Assembly: GCF_040183065.1 (NCBI RefSeq)
Contig: NC_091120.1
Span: forward strand, 182,405,896-182,469,895
DNA length: 64,000 nt
Source: Periplaneta americana
Taxonomy: Eukaryota > Arthropoda > Insecta > Blattodea > Blattidae
Direction of reading: 5' to 3'
A program made the translations under genes and the position numbers. This document shows positions 477 to 62,486 of this stretch, one piece after another (positions within the stretch are counted from its first letter, which is position 1; every line of letters starts with the position of its first letter). Below the pieces are notes generated by a model. The model saw only the letters and a list, made by a program, of their open reading frames with translations, ran no database searches and was not told the DNA's origin.

Positions 477-610
477 CTTCTCTGGAGAGTGGGCACCAGG
501 ACCAGGTGTCTGCGTAGAATCAGAGGGCAGTTCATAGCGAGAACTGAGGGAGTATGCAGGAGCCTTATCCCTGTAGCTGTCAACCCTAGCATCGTTGTAT
601 GTTCCAGGTC
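477..610 (-). CDS. Internal exon of an ODF3/CIMAP1-like sperm-tail PG-rich (SHIPPO) protein
   Basis: On the minus strand the exon runs from acceptor ttcag|GA to donor GAGAAG|gtaaag, 134 bp, entering in phase 1 and leaving in phase 0. It encodes 44 full codons beginning PGTYNDARVDSYRDKAPAYS and ending TPGPGAHSPEK. The paired PG motifs, the APAYS core and above all GPGAHSPEK are signatures of the penultimate repeat of ODF3 (outer dense fibre protein 3, CIMAP1), a protein of sperm flagellar axonemes. The split first codon is completed by the G left by the exon at 23343-23447, giving Gly. In this family the next exon encodes the C-terminal FGIKHS peptide; for this gene it must lie left of position 1. 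The family assignment is firm; the exact orthologue and whether the gene is expressed are not known. Confidence 0.8.
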
Positions 611-949
611 CTGAAGTCAAAATAGTTATTTTCCATGTTGAATCTTTCGTACACTGCTTTTAACACTTGAATATAAATAATTGATTAAATGGCGATCTTA
701 CTCGTGTTAATTATGTAAGCGTGTGCGGCTTACAGTTATTTTGTTTTACCCTTTGTCTCCCTGAAAAAGTAAATGCAGGGGCATGTTTCTAGTTACTCTA
801 TTCTGTTTGGCCAAGAACAGTTGAGATGTTGTGAACTTTAGATGCTGCAGGATACAAATAAAAAAAAAAAAGAATCTCAGAATTTTGACTTCCCAATTGA
901 TAAGAAAAAAAACATTTTTTTTAAACTGATATTTTCTTCTACTACTTGA
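611..949. other. Intron sequence without recognisable features
   Basis: AT-rich sequence between the exon at 477-610 and the LINE fragment that begins near 950. Apart from short A runs near 860 and 905, no coding or repeat signal is seen. The short stretch 236-476 on the other side of the exon is equally featureless. Confidence 0.5.
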
Positions 950-11892: not shown

Positions 11893-12589
11893 CGAGGAAA
11901 AATTAAATAAATTCAACTATTTCTGTGGAACAATACGTAGAACACTGGGGAAGAAAGTGAGAAAGGAAACATCAATCAAATATTACAAAGTAATGGCAAT
12001 TCCGTCCCTTCTATACGGCTGTGAATCTTGGGTTCTAAAGAAAAATGAAGAAAGAAAATGTTATGTTTTATTTAACGACGCTCGCAACTGCAGAGGTTAT
12101 ATCAGCGTCGCCGGATGTGCCGGAATTTTGTCCCGCAGGAGTTCTTTTACATGCCAGTAAATCTACTGACATGAGCCTGTCGCATTTAAGCATACTTAAA
12201 TGCCATCGACCTGGCCCGGGATCGAACCCGCAACCTTGGGCATAGAAGGCCAGCGCTATACCAACTTGCCAACCAGGTCGACTTGAAGAATTGAAGCAGG
12301 TGAAATGAAATTTCTTAGATATGTTGCGGGTTATACACTACTGGACAAAAAAAGAAATGAAGATATAAGAAAAGAACTAAAATAGATAGTATAATTCAAC
12401 TTATTAAAGAATATCGACATAATTGGAAAGAACATGTAAACAGAATGCCAACAACAAGTATAACGAGAGCAGCCATGAATTATAATCCATCAGGAAGGAG
12501 ATCATTAGGAAGACCAGTAAAACGTTGGGAGATCAATTTTAATGGAGGCGGAACAGGCCGAAAGACCTAAACCTTGAAGAAGAAGAAGA
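11888..12589 (+). mobile_element. RTE-type LINE fragment interrupted by a SINE
   Basis: Before the SINE, 11890-12057 encodes EEKLNKFNYFCGTIRRTLGK, then KVMAIPSLLYGCESWVLKKN. After it, 12284-12589 encodes EAGEMKFLRYVAGYTLLDK and NEDIRKELK, with stops, then GRRSLGRPVKRW. The two halves are colinear with the LINE at 7374-8026, so the SINE inserted into an existing copy. A (GAA)n tail ends it. Confidence 0.8.
12058..12283 (-). mobile_element. tRNA-derived SINE, family A
   Basis: On the minus strand a tRNA-like head starts near 12283: GACCTGGTTGGCAAGTTGG (A-box region), then GGTTGCGGGTTCGATCCC (B box), followed by a body and an AAATAAAACATAAC end. Nearly the same sequence lies at 30000-30175. It is nested inside the RTE LINE. 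Confidence 0.8.
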
Positions 12590-21336: not shown

Positions 21337-21535
21337 TACAGTGCATTTGTAGCTCGGCTGGACCATTCCACAGCGGCCTTGGACTGGATGAAGATGGGCA
21401 CCTGCCACCAGAGTAGCGCTGTAGCTACTGCTGACGCGCCAGTCAGTCGAGTTGAATCTGTCGTGAGAGAAAGACGTCTGTGCGCGTGTTGTGAGTAAAA
21501 TTGTGTTGCTGGTGGTGATAAAGTGTCTATTAATA

Positions 21536-22844
21536 ATGGTTGAGTACACTTTAGAACAACGTATTTTTCTCTATGATGCGTATGTGAAATACTCTTCTGC
21601 AAGAAGGTGTCGAAGAGAATTTGAACATCGGTTTGCAGGTGTTCAAATTCCTAGCAGGTCAGCTATTCATGACCTTGTCAATAAAGTCAGATGTACAGGA
21701 TCTTTTTTGAACAAGAAACATGTTCAACAATGCCGTGTAATGACAGACGAGAAGTTTAATGAAGTAGGGGCCTGGTTAGAGCACTCACCTCGCAAATCAT
21801 TGCGACATTTAGCACAAGAAGTTAACATTTCCAAGACGTCAGCATTTGTAGCAATGAAACTTCTGAAACTTAACCCATACAGGGTAACTGTAGTTCATGC
21901 TTTACAACCACAAGATCCTGTAAGTAGGGTTAATTATTGCAATTGGTTTGTGCAGTCTGTTCATAATGGCGACGTGGACCCACTTTTAACATTCTCCACT
22001 GAAGAAGTGTGGTTTCATCTTCACGGTCACTTTTCTACTCAGAACAACAGATACTGGGCTACCGAAAATTCCCATATTATTCATGAAGTTCCTCACCACG
22101 CTGCAAAGGTTGGGGTTTGTGCAGTGAGTGCAAGTAGAATTATCGATCCCATATTTTTCGACACAACAGTTGATTCACACGTTTATTTTTTTTATTTTAG
22201 TAGGTTATTTTACGACACTTTATCAACAGCTTAGGTTATTTAGCGTCTGAATGAGATGAAGGTGATAATGCCGGTGAAATGAGTCCAGGGTCCAGCACCG
22301 AAAGTTACCCAGCATTTGCTCATATTGGGTTGAGGGAAAACCCCAGAAAAAACCTCAACCAAGTAACTTGCCCCGACCGGGAATCAAACCCAGGCCACCT
22401 GGTTTCGCGGCCAGACGCGCTAACCGTTACTCCACAGGTGTGGACTCACACGTTTATGTAACTTCAATTTTAAATAATTTTTTTCCGCAACTAACAAGAA
22501 ATGAACAACTGAGTGGCTGGTTTCAGCAGAATTCAGCTACAGCGCACACTACTGCGAATTCTATGCATGAATTGCGAAGTGTGTTTGGTGACAGAAGAAT
22601 TAGTCGAGGATTGTGGCCACCTCGTTCTCCTGACTTATCTCCTTGCAATTTTTATTTATGGGGAACGTTAGAGAATAAAGTGTATGCATCAAATTCGCAC
22701 ACGTTACAAGAATTGAAGGACATCATCACGAGAGAAATACAGGCAATCAGTCAACATGAACTTTTGCAAGTGAACCAGAATTGTTTTCGGAAATATAGGG
22801 AATGTGTTCGAGTTGAAGGTCATCACTTTCAACATCTGTTGTGA
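21536..22844 (+). pseudogene. DUF4817/DDE transposase, split by a SINE and catalytically degenerate
   Basis: From the ATG at 21536 the ORF starts MVEYTLEQRIFLYDAYVKY, a DUF4817 helix-turn-helix domain (residues about 1-60), followed by a second HTH (KSLRHLAQEVNISKTS) and the DDE domain. The SINE at 22187-22445 interrupts it after about residue 216; the frame resumes as FFPQLTRNEQLSGWFQQNSA and runs to the stop at 22842-22844. All three catalytic acidic positions look altered: Glu in FSTEEVWF where FSDEAWF is usual, Asn in FQQNSATAH for Asp, and Asn in SPCNFYLWG for Asp. Apart from the insertion the reading frame is open, so loss of catalysis preceded decay of the frame or followed by drift. 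Confidence 0.85.
22187..22445 (-). mobile_element. tRNA-derived SINE, family B, nested, with 12-bp TSD
   Basis: Flanked by tcacacgtttat at 22175-22186 and 22446-22457, a perfect 12-bp duplication. On the minus strand the tRNA-like head is GTAACGGTTAGCGCGTCTGG (A-box region), then GGTTTGATTCCC-type B box, followed by a body with a conserved gggttgagggaaaacccc (plus strand) and an A-rich tail. Other copies: 24978-25109 and 52882-53125. Confidence 0.9.
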
Positions 22845-23342: not shown

Positions 23343-23447
23343 CTGGTACAAAATTCGGCTTCTCTAATTCTCTCTTGAAGCCGAATGTGAACTTGGGAGC
23401 ACTGTCATAAGCCTTCTCAGATGTCTGGAGATTGTATTCACCAGGTC
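23343..23447 (-). CDS. Internal exon of an ODF3/CIMAP1-like SHIPPO-repeat protein
   Basis: On the minus strand the exon runs from acceptor aaaccag|GA to donor GTACCAG|gtacca, 105 bp, phase 1 in and phase 1 out. It encodes PGEYNLQTSEKAYDSAPKFT, FGFKRELEKPNFVP and the first base of a Gly codon. The pattern PG-x-Y ... SAPKFTFG ... PG is one SHIPPO (sperm-tail PG-rich) unit of about 35 residues. It joins in frame to the exon at 477-610 (Gly across the junction) and accepts the G from 26550-26657. Only the PG frame and the APKF(T)FG core are shared with the duplicated exons to its right, so it is an older repeat. The intron to the next exon is nearly 23 kb and full of transposons. Confidence 0.8.
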
Positions 23448-26549: not shown

Positions 26550-26657
26550 CTGGTGTTTGGTCTGGCTTTTCCATTTCTCTCCTCTGGCCAAATGAATATT
26601 TTGGAGATCTATCATGGGTAGCTCTATCTGACATCTCAGGCCAATAATCTCCAGGTG
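26550..26657 (-). CDS. SHIPPO-repeat exon, duplicated copy 1 (intact)
   Basis: Minus-strand exon from acceptor atctag|CA to donor ACACCAG|gtactg, 108 bp, phase 1 both sides. It encodes PGDYWPEMSDRATHDRSPKY, SFGQRREMEKPDQTP and one base of the next codon. This is one sperm-tail PG-rich repeat (PG-x-Y ... SPKYSFG ... PG). It is about 92% identical to the exon at 29505-29612; differences give DYW/AYW, DRS/DSS and RRE/RTQ changes. Because the exon is symmetrical in phase, any number of copies can be spliced without shifting the frame. The upstream junction G|CA would give Ala, the downstream junction G|GA gives Gly. Flanking intron sequence is shared with the other copies. Confidence 0.8.
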
Positions 26658-27012
26658 CTAGATTAGAGATAAAACATCCCGTATATTAATCAAATAGGTG
26701 AAAAATTCACTGTAGAAGCCTACTGGAGCATTTTACATTTCACAGTTTATGTTATATGTTAATGGAGTAATGATTTACGATATCTTCTTAATTTACATAT
26801 ACTAGTATTTATTGCATTCGCAGGTTTGATTTAAAAGGAAGCAATACAACATTCTGAAAATACATGGCTCCTCAGAAGTGAATATCAATGCATTCTAAAA
26901 CATATTCTTTCGTTAAAGTTCCAAAAATATTGTACTGCTTCTCTTCTAGAAAAGGAAATCGCATATGAATGCATTACAAAAAGTAAATTCGTTGGGCACA
27001 CTTTGAAACATA
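26658..27012. other. Intron sequence duplicated with the exon
   Basis: 26680-26820 (for example cactgtagaagcctactgga and tggagtaatgattt) aligns with 30205-30325, right of the exon at 29505-29612. The duplication unit is thus the exon plus flanking intron. Confidence 0.7.
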
Positions 27013-28143
27013 CAGGCTATTCTATCTCAAATCGACCGAAATATAGAGAAAATTGACCTTGCAATTTTTAAATACAATGAAACTTTTTCTGTCTGTTGAC
27101 AACTGTGATACAATGCTTTGTGCAAAGTTTGAGGCATCAGAACTTCATAGTGTTTAAATAAAAAATATTTTAATTTATCGTATTTTCATCAAATTAGCAA
27201 CTTTAAACTGTTGTGGCTCCGAAACCCTTTCACCCAATGATCAAAATCATGGTTTATTTTGATGCTGAGAAATTAAAGTTTATATTGACATTTAAACAGT
27301 TTTTCTTACTTCTTATGGAATTGGAGAAATTTAGATTTTTCTTCATTAAGATGCCTTTGACCACCAAAAAAATATTTTAAAAATATATGGTTAGATTCCG
27401 TATTGAAAGTACAAATAAACACATATTTTTTACTGGTGCACCGTTGATAAGAAAGTATTGAAAATATCAAATAAAGAAAATAAATAGTATGCGCTTGAAG
27501 TAACCAGCTGACTGTGAGGCGGGAGCTAGCCGATGCAACCAAGGCCAGGAGACAAACACATAGCGCATAGCTGGGCTAGCTTTATCACAAGTTTTCATAA
27601 ACACAGGAGTAAAATGATGTCCAACACTCGCTTATCTTCAGCTCTTGGCCAGTGTGTGCAGTACTACACCGTACAAGTCTAGGGGTGTGAAAATAATTTA
27701 TTTAATACCTCGAAACTTATTGTAGAGCCACTAAGCAAACAATGCCCAATCCCTATTAATAATGCAAGGTTTTTTCCTCAATATTTTTTACATTTTTACA
27801 AATTGGCAAAAAGCCTAAAAGCAAGTAAAATCAGATTTTCTCTCTCTCTGTATACAATAAAAATAAGGGTTACTTCTTAACATAACCTACCATTTGCCAG
27901 CTTCAAAATGAGCTCCCGTTCAATGTTCTGCAGTAAATGGTTCCAGTTCTGAGTGCTGAAAGAGGTTTGTTTTTTTTATAAAATACGCTAAATTTGTCGC
28001 TCAATAGTACGAAAACCGTTTGACTTTCGATAGTATATTTTTGAAAATGCACTGTCCTCAGCACCTTGTATAAATAGGGAAAAAATTAGAGTATTAAAAA
28101 AATGCGAGGTTTTTTACTGATCGATTTCATATGGAATAGCCCG
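27013..28143. mobile_element. Unclassified element with GGCTATTC inverted ends
   Basis: The left end CAGGCTATTCTATCTCAAAT and the inverted right end CGGGCTATTCCATATGAAAT, with ta on both sides (27011-27012, 28144-28145), bound about 1.13 kb. The inner sequence is AT-rich and non-coding. TA duplication suggests Tc1/mariner-like mobilisation, but the ends fit no family I can name. Confidence 0.6.
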
Positions 28144-28509
28144 TACATACTGAACACATTTTTCTCAAAACTTAGGAGTCTAACTTAAATCCAGCCATGT
28201 TCTCAGTTGGAGGTTGTGCATGCAAATAAAATCTGGTTATTAAGTTTTCATGTGAATAATGCTACATGCACTCACAATGGTCCAGACGTTGCAACAGATA
28301 AATTGGGGTATAAGTGTAACAAAGAGAGAGATGAAGTAATTTTATTTTACTACACTTCCTCACATTTTGTACTTATATTTTCAATTATTATATCACCACC
28401 CCCCACAGCCGCCATCCCCACTACCACCACCATTATCAGAACTTGAAAAAAACATTCATCTGCTCGTCTATAAAGTGTGAAAAGTTTTATTTGATGAGTG
28501 AAAATAGTA

Positions 28510-29155
28510 CATTATGCAACGAGCCTATAATGGTAGTAATTAAGACGCGAGTATGTTTATGAAATGAGTGCGAGTTTCATAATTTTCATACGAGCGTCTT
28601 AATTACCATTATAGTCAAGTTTCATACGACTTTTTATGCTCGACCATATTTCTAACTTGAAATTATTCAGAAGTATTCATTTTATTCTTATATGACTGAG
28701 GAGTGGAACTGACCTTGTGCAATATCTCGTAAATTGTGAGATGTGCGCAGACGCGAAAGTATTGATTTTTTCCGAGGAACAAATGTCCACATTGACCTTG
28801 ATATAATCTAGAGAGTAAAATAAACATTAACCTTGATATAACCTTGAAATTGGTTTAGACATTGAAAAACGAGATGACAAATTGAATTTATTTGAATATT
28901 ATTTACAATTAACGCTAATTATTATAGTAACAGAACATAACCTTCTGCGACAGTATTGGATTTCCAGCCTCCGTGACATTTCGCTAGTTGTCTTTCAATT
29001 GCATATCCGAGAATAATCGATACTTGCGCTTTCATATTGCTACAATGGTGCTTTCTGATTGGTGGAACACCTGAACTTTAATGAATAGGTGTACTTTAAT
29101 GAGGTCCATTAAAGGGCTGCTACCAGGTGTATAATTACTACATTTCGGCATGGTC
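28510..29155 (-). mobile_element. Repeat family carrying a tyrosine-recombinase-like C-terminal motif, copy 1
   Basis: This is an inverted relative of 41876-42530. On the minus strand it starts tgctcgaccatgccgaaatg and ends ttataggctcgttgcataat. Its minus frame near 28930-29010 encodes AIERQLAKCHGGWKSNTVAE followed by GYV. Such HGGWKS-x-TVAEGY strings resemble the H/W box and nucleophilic Tyr of Crypton/Ngaro-type tyrosine recombinases; the assignment is inference. No earlier recombinase residues (R, H-x-x-R) were seen. Confidence 0.55.
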
Positions 29156-29267
29156 GAGCACAAAAAAATATGATTTTATAATTGTGCTTCTATGGTTCGA
29201 TCATGCTGACTAGTGAATTTTTTGTCTAACTGGTGAGCAACCATAAAATTTTTAAAGCCCTGATTAT

Positions 29268-29271
29268 TATT

Positions 29272-29318
<47 letters not shown>

Positions 29319-29319
29319 A
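29268..29319. repeat. Trinucleotide (ATC)n microsatellite
   Basis: About 17 atc units, preceded by attatt. Confidence 0.95.
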
Positions 29320-29504
29320 TTACTGAAGTCAAATGTTCAAAGTACCTGCGACCAAATATATATTATATGAAATTTGTCACACACTCTCGAAAACATAGTT
29401 TTAACAAACTCTAGAAATAAAAAATTCATCTAATTACAGTAACCTGTAACAAAAATTGAAATGAACCAATAGCCAATGCATGCAAAGTTTAAACAGAATA
29501 GTAC

Positions 29505-29612
29505 CTGGTGTTTGGTCCGGCTTTTCCATTTGTGTCCTCTGACCAAATGAATATTTTGGAGAACTATCGTGGGTAGCTCTATCCGACATCTCAGGCCAAT
29601 AAGCTCCAGGTG
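29505..29612 (-). CDS. SHIPPO-repeat exon, duplicated copy 2 (intact)
   Basis: Minus-strand exon from acceptor aactag|CA to donor ACACCAG|gtacta, 108 bp, phase 1 both sides. It encodes PGAYWPEMSDRATHDSSPKY, SFGQRTQMEKPDQTP and the first base of the next codon. It is the close paralogue of 26550-26657; the acceptor, donor and 60-80 bp of intron on each side also align (gcctgcaac/taacctgtaac, aatgcatgcaaagttt). Splicing to 26550-26657 yields a tandem pair of almost identical SHIPPO repeats in the encoded protein. Both could also be alternatives of one another. No stop or frameshift. Confidence 0.8.
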
Positions 29613-29999
29613 CTAGTTCAGAGACAAACAAAACATCCCGTATATTATCAGTTCGATGTAGTGCATACAGCTAAATTTGAACAGGTATGGTACCTGGAGG
29701 TTCCATACGTGTATATTTTTTTTAAATTTGGTTTGAATGAAGCTCTGTTGTGTAGTCCTTACTTCCCCCCCCCCCTTTGTACGTAGAAAATATTTCATAT
29801 ACAACAGACTCTTGCTAATCCGGCCATTCCTTGCAAAGTGTTGTTAGGTTATGGAAAATATAAAGTGAAAATGATTACATTCCAATGTGAGTCAAAAAGC
29901 TACTAGATTTAAATATATTATATGAAAAATGATGCAATCTCCATAAAGGAAAAAGCATGAAGAAGTTAGTAGGAATGTGTGTACAAATGTTTTATGTTT
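29613..29999. other. Intron sequence with a possible exon relic near 29690
   Basis: 29661-29710 (agctaaatttgaacaggtat then ggtacctggaggttccat) aligns with the left flank of the decayed exon at 31238, and ggtacctgg resembles the donor side of the repeat exon. It breaks down after about 25 bp. A C run lies at 29766-29775. Confidence 0.4.
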
Positions 30000-30175
30000 T
30001 ATTTAACGACACTCGCAACTGTCGAGGTTATATCAGCATCACTGGTGTGCCGGAATTTTGTCCCGCATAAGTTCTTTTATATGCCAGTAAATCTACTGAC
30101 ATAAGCCTGTCGCATTTAAGCACACTTACCTGGCCATCGACCTGGCCTGGGATCGAACTCGCAACCTTTTATGGT
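30000..30175 (-). mobile_element. tRNA-derived SINE, family A, second copy
   Basis: Matches 12058-12250 over its body and B box (tttatttaacgacactcgca, ggaattttgtcccgca, gggatcgaactcgcaacc). The A-box side is missing, so the copy is truncated in the tRNA-like head. Confidence 0.8.
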
Positions 30176-30485
30176 TGTATTGTTATCAGCACATATTTAA
30201 CATGAAAAAATCACTGTAGAAGCCTACTGGAGCATTTTACATTTTATAGTTACGTTGTATGTTCATGGAGTAATGATTTTTAAAGAGTTTCTTTTTAATG
30301 TACATAGGCTAATTTTAATCACTCTGTGCATGTAATATTTAAATATTTAACTTGCTGTAAATAAATAAAAAAACACATACATGCAAAACTAGGCCAGAAG
30401 GAGTGTTTTAACAAACTCTCGAAATAAAAATTTCATCGCCTGCAACTAAAATTGAAATGCATGCAGAGTTTCAACAGAATAGTAC
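30176..30485. other. Intron sequence duplicated with the SHIPPO exons
   Basis: 30205-30325 aligns with 26690-26820; 30400-30485 aligns with the sequence left of the exons at 26550 and 29505. It marks the boundary of the exon-plus-intron duplication units. Confidence 0.65.
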
Positions 30486-30592
30486 CTGGTGTTTGGTCCG
30501 GTTTTTCCATTTGTGTTTTCAGGCCAAATGAGAATTTTGGAGAACTATCATGGGTAGCTCTATCCGACATCTCAGGCAATAATCTCCAGGTG
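30486..30592 (-). pseudogene. SHIPPO-repeat exon, duplicated copy 3, one-base deletion
   Basis: Minus-strand sequence with intact acceptor (aactag|CA) and donor (CACCAG|gtacta), but 107 bp instead of 108: one C is missing (caggcaat here, caggccaat in copies 1 and 2). This shifts the frame after PGDY and brings a stop within about 20 codons. Past the deletion the original frame is otherwise clean (PKFSFGLKTQMEKPDQTP), with only ordinary substitutions. So the deletion is either very recent or a sequencing error, in which case this would be a third working repeat exon. Confidence 0.75.
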
Positions 30593-31237
30593 CTAGTTAA
30601 GAGACAAACAAAACGTCCTATATGTTTATCTTATGTGCACCAAAAGTGTAGTGTACCTATCCAATGTGGAAGGGGACCGATGCACCAAAATTTAAGAGAT
30701 GGTTCAAAATATTAAATATAACAAAATGTTTACTATACTTTCTCTGGGATGAAACACTATTAAGCTGGAAAAAAAAAGGTCTTTGCCCAATGTCTGGAGT
30801 GCTTTATTGCGATAATAGCCCAAGAGAAATGGCTGATTGTTATACAAGCAGATAGGTAAAAATAATCTGAATGGTTGGTATCTTGAGTTTTTTTTTTTTT
30901 TGCAAATTAAACCATTTTGCCATGAATTTAAATATAATATTTGCGAAAATCGTTCAAATAAATCTTGCAACATAGCACACTGTTGCGTGTCACCAAGAGA
31001 TGGGGGGAGGGGGAGATAAGACATGAGTGATCACACTTGCTAGAGTTATTGCAGTTGCCGTGATGTTGCCAAATGTTTCATAGAAACGTAACGATTTCCT
31101 GTAAAACAGTGAATGTTAGAAAAAAACTTATTTAGATTTCTCAAAACCTCTCATGATTTATTACCAGTTTCATTTTGGTGCAGTGGTTACCATCTATCCT
31201 GTATGTAGCTAAATTTAAACAGGTTAGGCCTATGACA
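30593..31237. other. Intron sequence without recognisable features
   Basis: Includes a T run at 30890-30901. Reading frames here have no family signal. 31185-31230 aligns with 29650-29700, left-flank intron of the repeat exon family. Confidence 0.45.
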
Positions 31238-31335
31238 CCTAGAATTTCGCTTAGTTTCTCCATCTGTGTTTTGAATTACGAGAATTATCACGAATAGCCT
31301 TATCAGACATCTCACAGCAGTAATTGCCCGACACT
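31238..31335 (-). pseudogene. Decayed SHIPPO-repeat exon, copy 4
   Basis: Aligned with copies 1-3, the minus strand still reads CEMSDKAIRDNSRN and KHRWRN before a stop. About 12 bp covering the KYSFG core are missing, and the acceptor AG has been lost (tgtcggg in its place). A weak donor (ctag|gtgtca) remains. It shows that the exon family expanded more than once and that older copies decay. Confidence 0.6.
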
Positions 31336-34617: not shown

Positions 34618-35953
34618 CGAGGCGCATCCAGAAAGTGACTTTTCCTATTTAAAAAAAAAAAAAAAAAAAGAACACACACTTTCAGGAAAACATTTATTGG
34701 CAACAGGTACAGCAATGTTTCAGCTATTTTTCAACATAGCCACCATCAGAACTGAGACACTTGTCGTATCGTGGGATCAACTTTTGTATCCCTCTGTCGT
34801 AGAACTCTGCTGTCTGTGAATGGAACCAGCGTGTGACAGACTTCTTCAGCTCTTCGTTGTTGCCAAAACGCTCACCGGAGAACAGGAATTTCTTGAGGTG
34901 AAAGAAAACGTGAAAATCGCTGGGAGCAAGATCAGGACTGTAGGGTGGGTGATGAAACAACTCCCAGCCAAATTCCGTCAAAACAGCTGCTGTGCGCCAA
35001 GCCGTATGTGGACGAGCATTGTCATGGAGGAGCACAACACCTGCAGTAAGCATTCCACGCCTCTTGTTTTGAATGGCACGTCGCAATTTTCACAGTGTTT
35101 CACAGTAACGGTCAGTGTTCACTGTTTCACCTCTTGGAAGTCAATGAGCAGAATGCCCTTCCTGTCCCAGAACACCGTGCACATCACTTTCTGTACTGGC
35201 AGCGTCTGTTTGAATTTCGTCCTCACCAGAGATCCACTATGCCGCCAATGCATTGACAGCTGCTTGGTTTCCGGGGTGAAATGCGAAATCCAAGTCTCAT
35301 CGCCAGTGACGATCCTGTCGAGGAACTCATCGCAGTCATCGTGATACTGTTGCAGAAATGTCATTGCTGATCCTAAACGTTGCATTTTGTGTTAGGGTGT
35401 CAGGTTTTTCGGCACCCACCTGGCACACACTTTTTTGAACAGCAGGTGCTTAGTGACAATCTCATGCAACAAGGACCGCGATATCTGCAGAAAATGGCTG
35501 CTCAGCTCCGTAATCGTGAAGCAATGGTTCTCCATGATGCACTGCCGCACCAGCTCAACACGATCATCACTGATGAGGGAAGGTCGCCCACTGCGCTCTT
35601 CATCATGGACACTTTGACGACCTTCGGAAAACTGCCTACACCAGCTATGCACCATCTGCTTACTCATGATGTTTGGCCCATAGACCTGACAGAGCTGCCG
35701 ATAAATTTCAATTGGCGAAATACTTTGTGCATTAAAGAACTTTATCACCGACCGAACCTCGCAGGCAGTGGAAGAAGGAATAAGGGCTTCCATTTCGGAC
35801 CACTGCTGCCACGCTACTGGCACCAGGCGGGACCTGTCCAGCTGGCATATGATTGATACGTCATATTTCTGTAAAGCATGCGCAATTGACACGGCTAATT
35901 AAGTTTACTTTCAAGGAGAAAAAATCGGGAACTTACTTTCTGGATGCGCCTCG
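34618..35953 (-). mobile_element. Full-length mariner transposon
   Basis: 1336 bp flanked by TA (34616-34617 and 35954-35955). The ends CGAGGCGCATCCAGAAAGTG and, inverted, CGAGGCGCATCCAGAAAGTA are 19/20 identical. Size, TA duplication and the encoded transposase place it in the mariner family. The interior end near 34650 carries an A run of about 20. Confidence 0.93.
34724..35793 (-). pseudogene. Mariner transposase (SETMAR-like), near-complete, two stops and a frameshift
   Basis: Reading leftward from about 35793: N-terminal HTH (EVRSVIKFFNAQSISPIEIY, then MVHSWCRQFSEGRQSVHDEE), the linker SGRPSLISDD, then VPKNLTP-stop-HK. The DDE domain follows: IVTGDETW (first Asp), HDNARPHT (second Asp), HPPYSPDLAPSDFH (third Asp, DD34D spacing style), and the C-terminus IPRYDKCLSSDGGYVEK with its stop at 34724. 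Catalytic residues are intact. Defects: one in-frame stop near 35390, a frameshift near 35145 before RGETVNTDRYCETL, and a stop just after that peptide. About 350 codons, normal for mariner. Confidence 0.9.
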
Positions 35954-39350: not shown

Positions 39351-39539
39351 AAGTGCAAATTTTCGAGAACGAAAAGTCCCGATTCGATATAACATGGCGC
39401 AAAAACACAAGAATTTCACACCATATTAAATACCGTGAAAGGCTTCAAAAAGGTAAATGACAATCACATAGAACGAGCCTGTTAATTGATGTTGCCATGG
39501 AAAAAAAAAAAAAAAAAACAAATATAATATGGCCATGAA

Positions 39540-40868
39540 GTCTGGACACATAGAGGAGAAGAGAGGGGATAGAAAAAGGAAAAGGAAGGGATTTATAGCA
39601 TAAAGAGAAATTGAGAAGGAAAAGAAGGGGAAAGAGAGATGAGAAAAAGCAAAAAAGGAAGGATGAAGAAAAGGAAAAACAGGTAAGAAGATAAGAAGGA
39701 AAAGGCAAAAAGAAAAAGAAGAACATGACGAAAGGAAGAGTAGAAGATGAAGAACGAAGGCAAAAGGTAGAGAAGCAGATGAAGGAAAGGGAAAGAAAAG
39801 TAAGATGAAGGAAATGTGGGAAAAGGAAGAGAAGCAGATGAAGAAGGAAGGGAAAAGGAAGAGAAGCAGATGAAGGAAAGGAAAAGAAAGGTAAGATGAA
39901 AGAAATGTGGGAAAAGGAGAAGCAGATGAAGAAGGAAGGGAAAAGAAAGGAAAGACGAAGGAAACGAGGGAAAAGGAAGAGAAGCAGATGAAGGAGGAAG
40001 GGAAAAAGGAGAGATTAAGGAAATGAGGGAAAAGAAAGAAGAATATGAAGAAGGAAGGGAAAAGAAAATAAAGATGAAGGAAATGAAGGAACGAAAAGAG
40101 AAGCAGATGAAGAAGGAAGGAAAAAGAAAGGAAAGATGAAGGAAATGACGGAAAAGGAGGAGAAGTAGATGAAATAGGGAAAAGAAAAGAAAGACCAGGA
40201 AAGTTAGGGAAAGAGAAAAGAAGTAGATGAAGGAAGGGAAAAGCACGGAAAGACGAAGGAAGTGAGGGAAAGGAAGAGAAGCAGATGAAGGAAGGGAAAA
40301 GAAAGGAAAGATGAAGGAAATGACGGAAAAGGAAGAGAAGCAGATGAAGGAAGGGAAAACATAGGAAAGACGAAGGAAGTGAGGGAAAAGGAAGAGAAGC
40401 AGATGAAGGGAAAAGAAAGGAAAAATGAAGGAAATGACGGAAAAGGAAGAGAAGCAGATGAAGGAAGGGAAAACACAGGAAAGACGAAGGAAGTGAGGGA
40501 AAGGAAGAGAAGCAGATGAAGGAAGGGAAAGGAAAGGAAAGATGAAGGAAATGATGAAAAAGGAAGAGAAGCAGATGAAGGAAGGGAAAACATAGGAAAG
40601 ACGAAGGAAGTAAGGGAAAAGGAAGAGAAGCAGATGAAGGAAGGGAAAAGAAAGGAAAGATGAAGGAAATGACGGAAAAGGAAGAGAAGCAGGTGAAGAA
40701 AAGAAAAAGGAAGACGAGGAAGAAAAATGAGGAAGGAAAGAGAAAAGAAGTGAAAAAGATAACGATAAGTAGGAAAAAGAAAAAAAAGATGGGGAAAGAA
40801 AGAGAAAAGGAGGAGGAAAGAAGGTGGACAAGAAAATGATATAAAAGAGAAAAGAAAAAAAACTGACA
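39540..40868. repeat. Purine-rich minisatellite, about 59-bp unit
   Basis: The plus strand is almost purely A/G. From about 40270 to 40690 the key block gaagcagatgaagg recurs every 58-59 bp (near 40277, 40336, 40395, 40450, 40508, 40567, 40626, 40684). Units alternate between a form with cataggaaagacgaaggaag and a form with gaaaggaaagatgaaggaaa, giving a roughly 118-bp higher order. Toward 39540 the units degenerate. Long Ser/Phe/Leu-rich minus-strand frames (up to 485 residues) are a by-product of the composition. Confidence 0.9.
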
Positions 40869-41875
40869 GGTGCACAGCTTCACTGTGCTCTAACTCTTTA
40901 TGTAGAACTACGTGGGTGGTGCATGAAATGAAACAAGGAGAACAAGGAGATACAAGGATTTGTTAGGAGTAGGGGGTAGCATTAAGGGGTAATACGAAAG
41001 CCGTCTATTTCTCTGCCTTTACTATACTCTTGACAAGACCAGATTCAACATTTGATCATCAGAAACTCACCAACTTGTTTTTCACATAAGTTAAACGTAA
41101 CACAAAACATTGTTCATCTGGACTTGTAGTGCTCATTCTGCTTACAGACTGATGCATAGCTTGAAAATAACACTATACATTCTACCTTGATCACAAATAT
41201 TTATTATTACATCTTTGAAACAATAGGAACAATAAGCACTACCTATCTAGGCCATTATATTACTGCCAGACAGCACATCATCAATTATTATCACAAGTTA
41301 ATAAAATAAAAACAATTAGAATAAAATATTAAATAAAAAACATTTGAAACCATTAACAAACAAGCATCAAGCACAATTAGAAAGCACAGCAATGGAATGC
41401 AACAGCAGCTATTACATCAACAATAACGGGATCTGATCTTCATTTTTTTTTTTTCGTCTTGTCTTAATCACATCTGATCACATAGCTGCTTTTATTATTG
41501 AAATCAAACAAATATTCTAATGCAATGGTAAAATTTGTCCCTAGAGACTAAGCACCACACTAACAGGGGAAAATCAGGATGGGGAGATGAAGCTTTGTGT
41601 ACAGGAGCTGGAGACAGGGCCTTGGAAGAAAATCTCGTTTCAGGCTGTTTCGGTCCATCTTTTTGGGTCACTTTTAATTTTTAGTATTAGGCCATTTAGG
41701 TAAATAAGACATTTCGGTCCCACGAAATTTTTGGTACAGCATTTTCCGTAATAGGCCATTTCTGTACCACAAATTTTTTGGTACAGCACTTCGGCTACTT
41801 GGGTCACTTTATCATTTTTGTCATTGCTTTGTTTCAGTCATGTTGCTTGGTCATTCTTTATGAAATAAATTTAAT
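40869..41875. other. Stretch with loosely repeated gacatttcggtc-like motifs
   Basis: 41640-41830 has repeats of the style ggccatttaggt, catttcggtccc, ttggtacagca. Related words occur near 43030-43110. No gene recognised. Confidence 0.4.
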
Positions 41876-42530
41876 TTATGCTCGACCATGCCGAAATGTA
41901 GTAATTATACACCTGGTAGCAGTCCTTTAATGCATGTCATTAAAGTACACCTACTCATTAAAGGTCAGGTCTTTCAGTCAATGACGACTCAGGTTACAAC
42001 TGTTCAGCCAATGACAGGTCAGCTTTCTACCGTTATAAAACCGCAAGTATCGATTATTCTCGGATATGCAATCGAAAGAGAATTAGCGAAAAGTCACGGA
42101 GGCTGGAAATCCAATACTGTCGCAGAAGGTTATGTTCTGTTACTATAATAATTAGCGTTAATTGTAAATAATATTCAAATAAATTCAATTTGTCATCTCG
42201 TTTTTCAATGTCTAATTTAATTTCAATGCTATCTCTGTAGGTTCTTATGGCCTAGCAAGGTCAATGTGGACATCTGTTCCTCGGAAAAAATCAATACTTT
42301 CGCGTCTGCGCACATCTCACAACATACGGAACATTGCTCCAGGTCAGATACAATAAAATTAATAATATCAAGTTAGAAATATGGTCGAGCATAAAAAGTC
42401 GTATGAAACTCGCCTATAATGGTAATTAAGAAGCTCGTAGGAAAATTATTAAACTCGCTTGCACTCGTTTCATAAATATCCATACTCACTTCTTAATTAC
42501 CTTCATTATAGGCTCGTTGCATAATGTAGG
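41876..42530 (+). mobile_element. Repeat family carrying a tyrosine-recombinase-like C-terminal motif, copy 2
   Basis: Inverted relative of 28510-29155, alignable over nearly its whole length. It starts tgctcgaccatgccgaaatg and contains atggtcgagcataaaaagtc near 42381, so the first about 515 bp have 11-bp inverted ends (TGCTCGACCAT). The distal 120 bp form a loose palindrome with cctataatggtaattaag and cttaattacc...ttatagg. An 86-residue ORF at 41888-42148 includes GYAIERELAKSHGGWKSNTV and AEGY. Confidence 0.6.
41888..42148 (+). pseudogene. Short ORF with tyrosine-recombinase-like C-terminal box
   Basis: An 86-residue ORF. Residues 1-50 are low-complexity Thr/Val/Gln-rich and not recognised. 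Residues about 57-82 (ILGYAIERELAKSHGGWKSN, then TVAEGY) resemble the last helix-strand of eukaryotic tyrosine recombinases, where W/H and Tyr act at the active site. The same peptide, with a few substitutions, can be read in the copy at 28510-29155, so the coding character was shared by their ancestor. Too short to act alone; likely the 3' end of a former recombinase gene captured by a non-autonomous element. What else it could be: chance conservation of the DNA. Confidence 0.45.
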
Positions 42531-45840: not shown

Positions 45841-45924
45841 CTACCACACATTATCCCTCAGGTTGCCCATATATGGTGAATGTTTGATTCCAAATGTGTG
45901 TGCTGGAAGGTTATCCAACCTTGC
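45841..45924 (-). CDS. Terminal exon of a second ODF3/CIMAP1-like gene (or relic)
   Basis: Minus strand: acceptor ctgttacag|GCA, then 27 codons and TAG. The peptide is ARLDNLPAHTFGIKHSPYMG followed by NLRDNVW. ODF3-family proteins end with this A-x-x-FGIKHS-x-Y motif directly after GAHSPEK. It enters in phase 0, exactly the phase in which the exon at 477-610 leaves, so gene structure is conserved. It lies upstream of the first gene's exons and ends in a stop, so it belongs to a different gene copy. No penultimate exon was found between here and the next terminal exon at 56268, so this copy may be an isolated relic; the short ORF itself is undamaged. Confidence 0.72.
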   Translation of the reverse strand, partial: ARLDNLPAHTFGIKHSPYMGNLRDNVW

Positions 45925-56267: not shown

Positions 56268-56369
56268 TCACTTTTTGTTGTTCTCAATTCTCGGCTGGAA
56301 TGTCCCTAGATATGGGGAATGTTTGATGCCGAAGGAATAGCTGGGAGCCCAACTCTTGTCAAGATACAC
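56268..56369 (-). CDS. Terminal exon of a third ODF3/CIMAP1-like gene
   Basis: Minus strand: acceptor gaccctgcag|GTG, 33 codons and TGA. The peptide is VYLDKSWAPSYSFGIKHSPY followed by LGTFQPRIENNKK. APSYSFGIKHSPY is the C-terminal SHIPPO-type motif of ODF3 proteins. Entry is in phase 0, matching the exit phase of the GAHSPEK exon type seen at 477-610. It is more complete than 45841-45924 (similar core FGIKHSPY, different tail). The next exon upstream is not in the remaining 7.6 kb; an intron block homologous to that beside 477-610 occurs at 62487-62735, so it should lie just beyond 64000. Confidence 0.78.
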   Translation of the reverse strand: MYLDKSWAPSYSFGIKHSPYLGTFQPRIENNKK

Positions 56370-60383: not shown

Positions 60384-61041
60384 TTGAAGGGGGTGACGGG
60401 TAAAATTTCTATTTTCTACATTTTTCAAGCTACATCCTTGATTTTTCGTACACATAATCACGGTGTGATAGATAATGATGTGATGAAGTTTCATTTCTCT
60501 GAGTCAATTAGTTTCTGGGTTTTTAAGAAAAAATATTTTGAAAAATGTGCATAGGCTATTTCAAACTGGAAAGTGTCGCTCAATTTTTCAGTAAAATGTC
60601 TGAATTTTTTTTTTGCAAGACCAGTGACATATTTAGAAAAAACACCACTCATTAATTTTCCTATATCTTTACTACAAAACGGGAGAAAAAAAATTTTATA
60701 ACCACTGCACACCTAAAAATAGAAATTTTTCATTGCCACTATAAATATTTCATTTTTTATTTCAAAAAGTATTTATTTAATAATAATACAAAACCCATGC
60801 GCTATTTCGTTAATCATAGTGTATAGAACATGCAGTAAAAATTTAATGTTCCTAGCATAAAAATTGTAAGAGTCTTTACACTTCGAACAACTTTTAGATT
60901 TCGCATAGAATTGAAGTTCAAGGGTGCAGCCATTTATATTATTGCGTAATTTTTATGCTTTCGAGCGCCGCAAGAATTGAAACTTGCTTTCAGGGGCGAG
61001 CTAAAGTTTTTCTGTATATATTATATTTTATGTTACGATTA

Positions 61042-61077
<36 letters not shown>

Positions 61078-61313
61078 ACGAACGAAGGAAAGAAGGAACA
61101 AACAAACAAACAAACAAACAAAAAACAAACAAACAGACAAACAAACAAATAAATAAATAAATGAACGAATGAACGAACGAATAAACGAAAAAAAAATAAA
61201 TGAATGAATGAATGAACGAACGAACAAATAAATGAACAAACAAACAAACAAACGAACCAAACAAACAAACAAACAAATAAACAAACAAACAAACAAATAA
61301 ATGAACGAACGAA

Positions 61314-61380
<67 letters not shown>

Positions 61381-61405
61381 GTAAATAAATGAACGAATGA
61401 ACGAA

Positions 61406-61448
<43 letters not shown>

Positions 61449-61973
61449 ACGAACGAACGAATAAATAAATAAACGAAGGAACGAAGGAACGAACGAACGA
61501 ACGAACGAACAAACAAACAAACAAACAAACAAACAAACAAACAAACAAACAAACAAATAAATAAATAAATGAACAAATGAACGAACAAACGAATAAATAA
61601 ACAAATAAATAAATAAATGAACGAATGAACGAACGAATAAATAAATAAATAAATGAACGAATGAACGAACGAATAAATAAATAAATAAATAAATAAATGA
61701 ACGAATAAATAAATAAATAAATGAACGAATGAACGAACGAATAAATAAATAAATAAATAAATAAATGAACGAATAAATAAATAAATAAATAAACGAATGA
61801 ACGAATAAATAAATAAATAAATAAATAAATAAATGAACGAATAAATAAATAAATAAACAAATAAACAAATAAATAAATAAATAAATGAACGAATAAATAA
61901 ATAAACAAACAAATAAATAAACAAATAAATAAATAAATAAATGAACGAATGAACGAACGAACGAACGAACGAA

Positions 61974-62016
<43 letters not shown>

Positions 62017-62125
62017 ATGAACGAATAAATAAATAAATAAGAGATTGCCGATTCATTTTTTACAAGGAAATGAAAATACGATTTTTGATTGAAAACGACC
62101 AAAATTTCACCTGTCACCCCCTTAA
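60384..62125. mobile_element. Element with AAGGGGGTGAC inverted ends, enclosing a tetranucleotide array
   Basis: The left end gaagggggtgacgggtaaaa and the inverted right end taagggggtgacaggtgaaa match. Low-complexity A/T sequence lies inside on the left, the array on the right. The target duplication is unclear. Confidence 0.6.
61043..62040. repeat. About 1-kb tetranucleotide array, (TAAA)/(GAAC)/(CAAA) blocks
   Basis: Nearly every fourth base steps through taaa, gaac, gaat or caaa units. Blocks with recurrent order (aaataaatgaacgaatgaac then gaacgaataaat) repeat along 61600-62000. Long minus-strand frames of Leu/Phe/Ile/Tyr (up to 392 codons, three registers) are artefacts of the period. 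Confidence 0.97.
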
Positions 62126-62486
62126 GAAAGGTATGAAAATTCCCTACAAAATTGTAATAGAGAAACATGCTGATATTTTAATGATAATTATTAATATTAT
62201 AGAGAAGTAAAAAAAATACTACTTATAGATTATGATTTTTCTGAAAGGGAACAAATTAAGGCAGGGTATCCTATTAACTCAATACAGAAATGAAGTTTCT
62301 AGGAAATTTTTCATTAATGAAAGCAGCTGGGTTTTCCGATTTTCTAAGTGAAGATTTTATTATAAAAGTTAAATAAAGTTTTAGACACACATTTCTAATT
62401 GAGTATTGTATACCTATTCAGTTACATTTACGTAAAGGCTTAGCTTTACCGGTATCTCTCTAGAACACAGGCTACTCTTGAAACCA
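62126..62486. other. Stretch without a confident gene
   Basis: AT-rich; no feature recognised. Confidence 0.4.

Follow-up and report, generated by a model that had tools for sequence, protein, structure and literature searches.

A 64,000-nucleotide (nt) stretch of the Periplaneta americana chromosome NC_091120.1, referred to here as the window, carries on its minus strand a series of short exons that each encode exactly one SHIPPO repeat, the proline-glycine (PG)-rich repeat of the ODF3 family, and thereby raises the question of whether the repeat number of a protein has grown by exon duplication and, if so, in which gene. An earlier reading made from the letters alone (the sequence-only reading) had presented these exons as an example of such growth. 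We found that repeat growth by exon duplication is real and well preserved, but chiefly in a complete ODF3/CIMAP1-type gene model (gene A) upstream of the window copies on the same strand and mainly outside the window, whereas the window copies themselves constitute a worn, truncated half-duplicate (duplicate B). Coordinates below are window positions unless prefixed by C4 (the chromosome that holds the window), C17 or C9.

When scanned alone with a regular expression and a profile, the window yielded isolated SHIPPO exons and no gene, and it was the flanking chromosome that accounted for them. Exons R7a and R7b (Table 1) were intact as the sequence-only reading had described them, each being 108 bp long on the minus strand, with AG and GT at its borders and an uninterrupted phase-1 frame. 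A third copy, R7c, was one base short (107 bp) with its splice sites kept, also as described. The phase-1/1 single-repeat structure, the tandem placement and the unequal decay of the copies were likewise borne out, as was the duplication of intron along with exon, since 206 nt of the intron beside R7a and R7b matched at 87% identity in a region pair far above chance (blastn E = 1.4e-71). Exons R2–R8 of gene A, R7a and R7b were all 108 bp long, flanked by AG and GT, in one codon phase and accompanied by shared intron sequence, the pattern of tandem exon duplication. The copies differed by 7–25% in exons and by 10–25% in aligned intron (p-distance), far beyond allelic differences, and the inserted elements differed from copy to copy. 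An assembly artefact, in which unmerged haplotypes or misjoined contigs would have created the copies, is therefore hardly credible, and nothing was found in its favour beyond the large, repeat-rich genome.

Against the Pfam profile PF07004 (SHIPPO / sperm-tail PG-rich repeat) with a cut-off of 20 bits, two of five exons passed (R7b and R8′; Table 1), while R7a (19.1 bits), R7c (13.8 bits) and T1 (17.4 bits) fell below it singly. A query made of R7a joined to R8′ had ODF3/CIMAP1 as its closest solved structures; the PDB entries matched here and below are those that we take to be sea-urchin and mammalian or mouse ODF3. The genome-wide PF07004 search returned 15 matches, of which 10 were at the window locus on C4, 4 on C17 and 1, a weak one, on C9. 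One array repeat searched against the whole genome gave at least 12 matches, a lower bound because 13 candidates were scored. Every match listed fell at the window locus, which rules out a dispersed coding repeat, and R6d was not among the matches listed.

Gene A consists, in order, of exons N1, N2, N3, R1 (177 bp), R2–R8 (108 bp each), E10 (260 bp) and either T1 or T2. Its internal exons had canonical AG/GT borders and matching phases, and the predicted product was 505 or 511 amino acids (aa) long. The gene contains eight SHIPPO repeats of the array type, one in the longer exon R1 and seven in the 108-bp single-repeat exons, and R1–R3 and R4–R7 make up two clusters whose exons recur every 200–218 bp, with introns of 92–110 bp. 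By our own count the product holds 13 PG motifs; the regular expression matched 14 times, and one match, PPAATLH, was dropped as spurious. Silent differences between the two last exons, T1 and T2, were saturated (14 silent sites), so that the pair looks old, and a counterpart in duplicate B was found for T2 only and not for T1.

When gene A was collapsed to one array repeat, its product aligned nearly end to end with 8snb_1a, the sea-urchin ODF3 (E 3.1e-50; residues 8–245 of 253 against 5–242 of 251), and matched mouse ODF3/CIMAP1A with E 8.1e-45; one array-type repeat has thus become eight. The order of PG repeats and the type of C-terminus were as in ODF3/CIMAP1A (SHIPPO1) of sea urchin and mammals, but the sea-urchin and mouse proteins have one array-type repeat, whereas gene A has eight and a length doubled to 505–511 aa. 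A second gene of the same family in the same genome (C17:88405701-88415432), whose best PDB match was ODF3 8snb_5A (E 4.3e-45), has six PG motifs counted by eye, one array-type repeat and no exon array, and thus represents the unexpanded state. In the 28 pairs of gene A repeats, silent differences were near saturation, with 7 pairs giving no finite silent divergence (dS), and the ratio of replacement to silent divergence (dN/dS, w) ranged from 0.02 to 0.19 in the remaining 21. Near-saturated silent sites combined with low w argue that the array is old and has been kept.

The window copies very probably belong to B, a 5′-truncated tandem duplicate of the 3′ half of gene A, as far as sequence comparison can tell. 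In a self-blastn of the locus, R6 paired with R6d, R7 with R7a, R7b and R7c, R8 with R8′ and E10 with E10′, each time with intron on either side, and the exon tree joined R6 to R6d (support 93), R7 to R7a, R7b and R7c (98) and R8 to R8′ (99). The sequence-only reading had counted one exon four times; the window instead holds R7 three times and a relic of R6, and blastn pairing and tree together rule out R6d as a fourth copy of R7. That reading had rightly called this relic decayed (Table 1), but the splice acceptor that it held to be lost is present, with AG and GT both at homologous places, and it is the acceptor context that is degraded, from CCAG in R6 to TGAG. Exon E10′ carries two in-frame stops and then an insertion of ~110 bp (net +108) that is flanked by AAAATAACT and brings two more stops; its 3′ part, 477-610, is open and lies directly behind a phase-1 AG.

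No second match to N1–N3 was detected on C4, where each occurred once, in gene A; the same query also had one match in the C17 paralogue. N-terminal exons were sought for B and not found on C4, no counterpart of R1–R5 was found, homology between B and A begins at R6d, and B alone did not form a complete gene with an N-terminus. The blastn pairing, the exon tree and the presence of N1–N3 on C4 only in gene A indicate that the 3′ half was duplicated in tandem and that R7 was then copied twice in B. Kimura two-parameter (K2P) distances between the introns of A and B were 0.18–0.30 over nine aligned blocks. Within B, aligned intron was closer between R7b and R7c (K2P 0.106) than between R7a and R7b (0.181), so R7a probably split first. 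The sequence thus shows gene A with a tandem duplicate of R6, R7, R8, E10 and T2 behind it as B, within which two further copies of R7 were made along with flanking intron, R6 and one R7 copy have decayed, and E10 is broken.

Several observations weigh against this assignment and history. Some matches between A and B are out of order, such as 94 nt of the R3–R4 intron of gene A that match the stretch between R7a and R8′; we took these as putative dispersed elements. The exon tree draws on 105 sites, and gene conversion may have occurred, since the step from R7 to R7a and R7b, with a dS of 0.15, seems more recent than R8/R8′ (0.76), the 3′ part of E10/E10′ (0.44) or T2/T2′ (0.42; Fisher p 0.06). 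Finally, the splice forms of both A and B are sequence-based predictions.

Table 1. Features of duplicate B, last exons of gene A and a probably inserted element, with window coordinates unless prefixed.
Feature	Position	Strand	Description	Remarks
R7a	26550..26657	-	Intact 108-bp phase-1/1 SHIPPO exon	AG/GT-flanked, open; groups with R7 of gene A
R7b	29505..29612	-	Intact 108-bp phase-1/1 SHIPPO exon	AG/GT-flanked, open; PF07004 24.2 bits
R7c	30486..30592	-	R7 exon, 107 bp	One base short, frame broken, splice sites kept
R6d	31239..31333	-	Relic of array exon R6, 95 bp	13-bp deletion and stops; AG/GT present
R8′	23343..23447	-	105-bp SHIPPO exon, counterpart of R8	Diverged, open, AG/GT kept; PF07004 28.9 bits; tree support 99
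E10′	477..844	-	Counterpart of long exon E10	Broken
T2′	C4:182402328-182402411		Counterpart of T2	About 3.5 kb beyond the left end of the window
T2	45841..45924	-	Last exon of gene A, ODF3-type C-terminus	Ends TAG
T1	56268..56369	-	Alternative last exon of gene A, ODF3-type C-terminus	Ends TGA
Element	28570..29181		Between R7a and R7b	Inverted second copy at 41858-42458

A codon model from which R7c and R6d were excluded put w at 0.51 on the B branches (R7a, R7b and R8′) and at 0.14 on all others (p 0.005); for B, w = 1 was not rejected (p 0.23; 0.54 for the R7 branches alone and 0.19 for R8′ alone). Judged from its codons, B is under relaxed constraint. The sequence-only reading had suggested that fast change might be expected in a sperm-structure gene family. 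Gene A does not fit this expectation, with w about 0.14, and only B is fast, which agrees with relaxed constraint.

The relaxed w and the unrejected neutrality would be expected if B were a plain pseudogene fragment whose intact exons had survived by chance, and we consider this rather likely. The lack of N-terminal exons for B on C4 is consistent with this explanation, as are the breakage of three of the seven B units and the long tree branches of R6d (0.32) and R8′ (0.31) compared with 0.00 on the A side. The intactness of the other units and the counts of silent and replacement changes speak against it, each with moderate strength only. Four of the seven exon units are intact, a number reached in 0.6–16% of runs of a neutral simulation under eight settings, and in 3.5% when K was set to 0.22 and indels occurred at the measured rate.

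These same observations would favour a B that is still used, a possibility that we regard as doubtful, in which transcripts of gene A would extend further and join R8, or a different phase-1 exon, to R7b, R7a, R8′, the 3′ part of E10′ and T2′ as an alternative 3′ end. These segments form an in-phase open chain that ends at the stop in T2′. The 3′ part of E10′ had w 0.16 (11 silent and 7 replacement changes); the 5′ part, by contrast, had 4 silent and 11 replacement changes and w about 0.8, two rows being pooled by hand (Fisher p 0.08 between the parts, or 0.04 when the two stops are counted). Departure from a model with B neutral, A at w 0.14 and equal branches had p 0.024, 0.012 and 0.037 for three nested exon sets. 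The dN/dS comparison between copies, put forward as a check in the sequence-only reading, cut both ways, with w 0.22 between R7a and R7b (from 4 and 4 changes) but 0.85 between R7 and R7a and 0.68 between R7 and R7b. Use of B is further opposed by the failure of the codon model to reject w = 1, by the breakage of R6d, R7c and the 5′ part of E10′, and by a hand count over the R7 copies of 12 replacement and 9 silent changes (p 0.02 or 0.07, by site ratio).

Replacement change in B was near neutral when gauged by intron divergence (about 0.22, from alignable pieces only) rather than by dS, which ranged from 0.15 to 0.76. Because these yardsticks disagree, the verdict on B hinges on which of them is trusted. 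On balance, B is more likely dead or nearly so than used; it would be mostly a relaxed by-product, of which at best some exons may furnish gene A with an alternative 3′ end.

Other elements were observed in the window. The element at 28570-29181 (Table 1) is probably a later insertion. A short element occurs in two copies 94% alike, at 30046-30128 and 12116-12198, and the copy ~430 bp upstream of R7b sits in the intron between R7c and R7b. Mariner-like transposase remnants lie in two pieces at 34727-35898 on the minus strand, with Pfam DDE_3 below and HTH_48 above the cut-off, and an open reading frame at 21467-22231 on the plus strand, which encodes a DUF4817 helix-turn-helix domain, probably derives from a transposable element. 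Long tandem or low-complexity arrays occupy 61035-62200 and 39429-40960, and their long open frames are probably meaningless.

Exons copied head to tail inside one gene are likewise found in Dscam, Mhc and nAChR alpha6 of insects, where use is alternative and often mutually exclusive; the unit in gene A is instead one repeat of a repeat protein. Since this unit is a multiple of 3 and the introns inside the clusters measure 92–110 bp, joint inclusion of the gene A exons would be expected. Searches of the literature for SHIPPO with exon duplication, or for sperm-tail PG-rich with exon and insect, returned no such case, which falls short of proving absence from print, and the available portions of PMC10761942, PMC10663601 and PMC10973386 do not describe such an array.

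The array of gene A may have grown in the same way as the copies in B, through tandem duplication of a ~200-bp unit that comprises exon and intron and lies between phase-1 introns; unequal exchange is the probable mechanism. As to what a further repeat would do, PMC10105768 reports that the PG motif of Tetrahymena STPG1A binds tubulin, that spacers of ~40 aa set an 8-nm step, and that ODF3L, which has 12 motifs, is believed to extend over 96 nm. In comparison with these ~40-aa spacers in STPG1A/ODF3L and 12 motifs in ODF3L, gene A has a period of 36 aa and 13 motifs. By analogy, groove and step would hold for insect ODF3 as well, and the gene A product would be a sperm-axoneme protein that follows a protofilament groove and contacts one tubulin dimer with each of its repeats. 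Since one PG repeat corresponds to one 8-nm tubulin step in STPG1A, each 108-bp exon may lengthen the protein by ~8 nm with the frame untouched.

Two points weigh against this extrapolation: the 8-nm step was taken from STPG1A of Tetrahymena, which is neither ODF3 nor an insect protein, and the count of 13 PG motifs is divisible by neither 6 (48 nm) nor 12 (96 nm). A stronger version, in which gene A would be an exon-coded ruler that turned a 6-step (48-nm) ODF3 into a 13-step one (12 steps, 96 nm, one cassette being skipped) and B would add a second 3′ end with more steps, E10′ being rescued by the acceptor behind its insertion, seems to us improbable. We considered whether 13 motifs could match 96 nm and make no such claim, as the number agrees with 48 nm or 96 nm only when a cassette is skipped.

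Neither tandem exon duplication nor ODF3 is new, and the value of this locus lies in the fit of the exon to exactly one repeat. The same genome supplies a built-in control, the ODF3-type gene on C17 with one array-type repeat, and B provides a side experiment in which the same exons can be followed after the loss of most constraint. If an exon equals one repeat and a repeat equals one tubulin step, as in STPG1A, the copy number of an exon could be translated into a distance along the microtubule.

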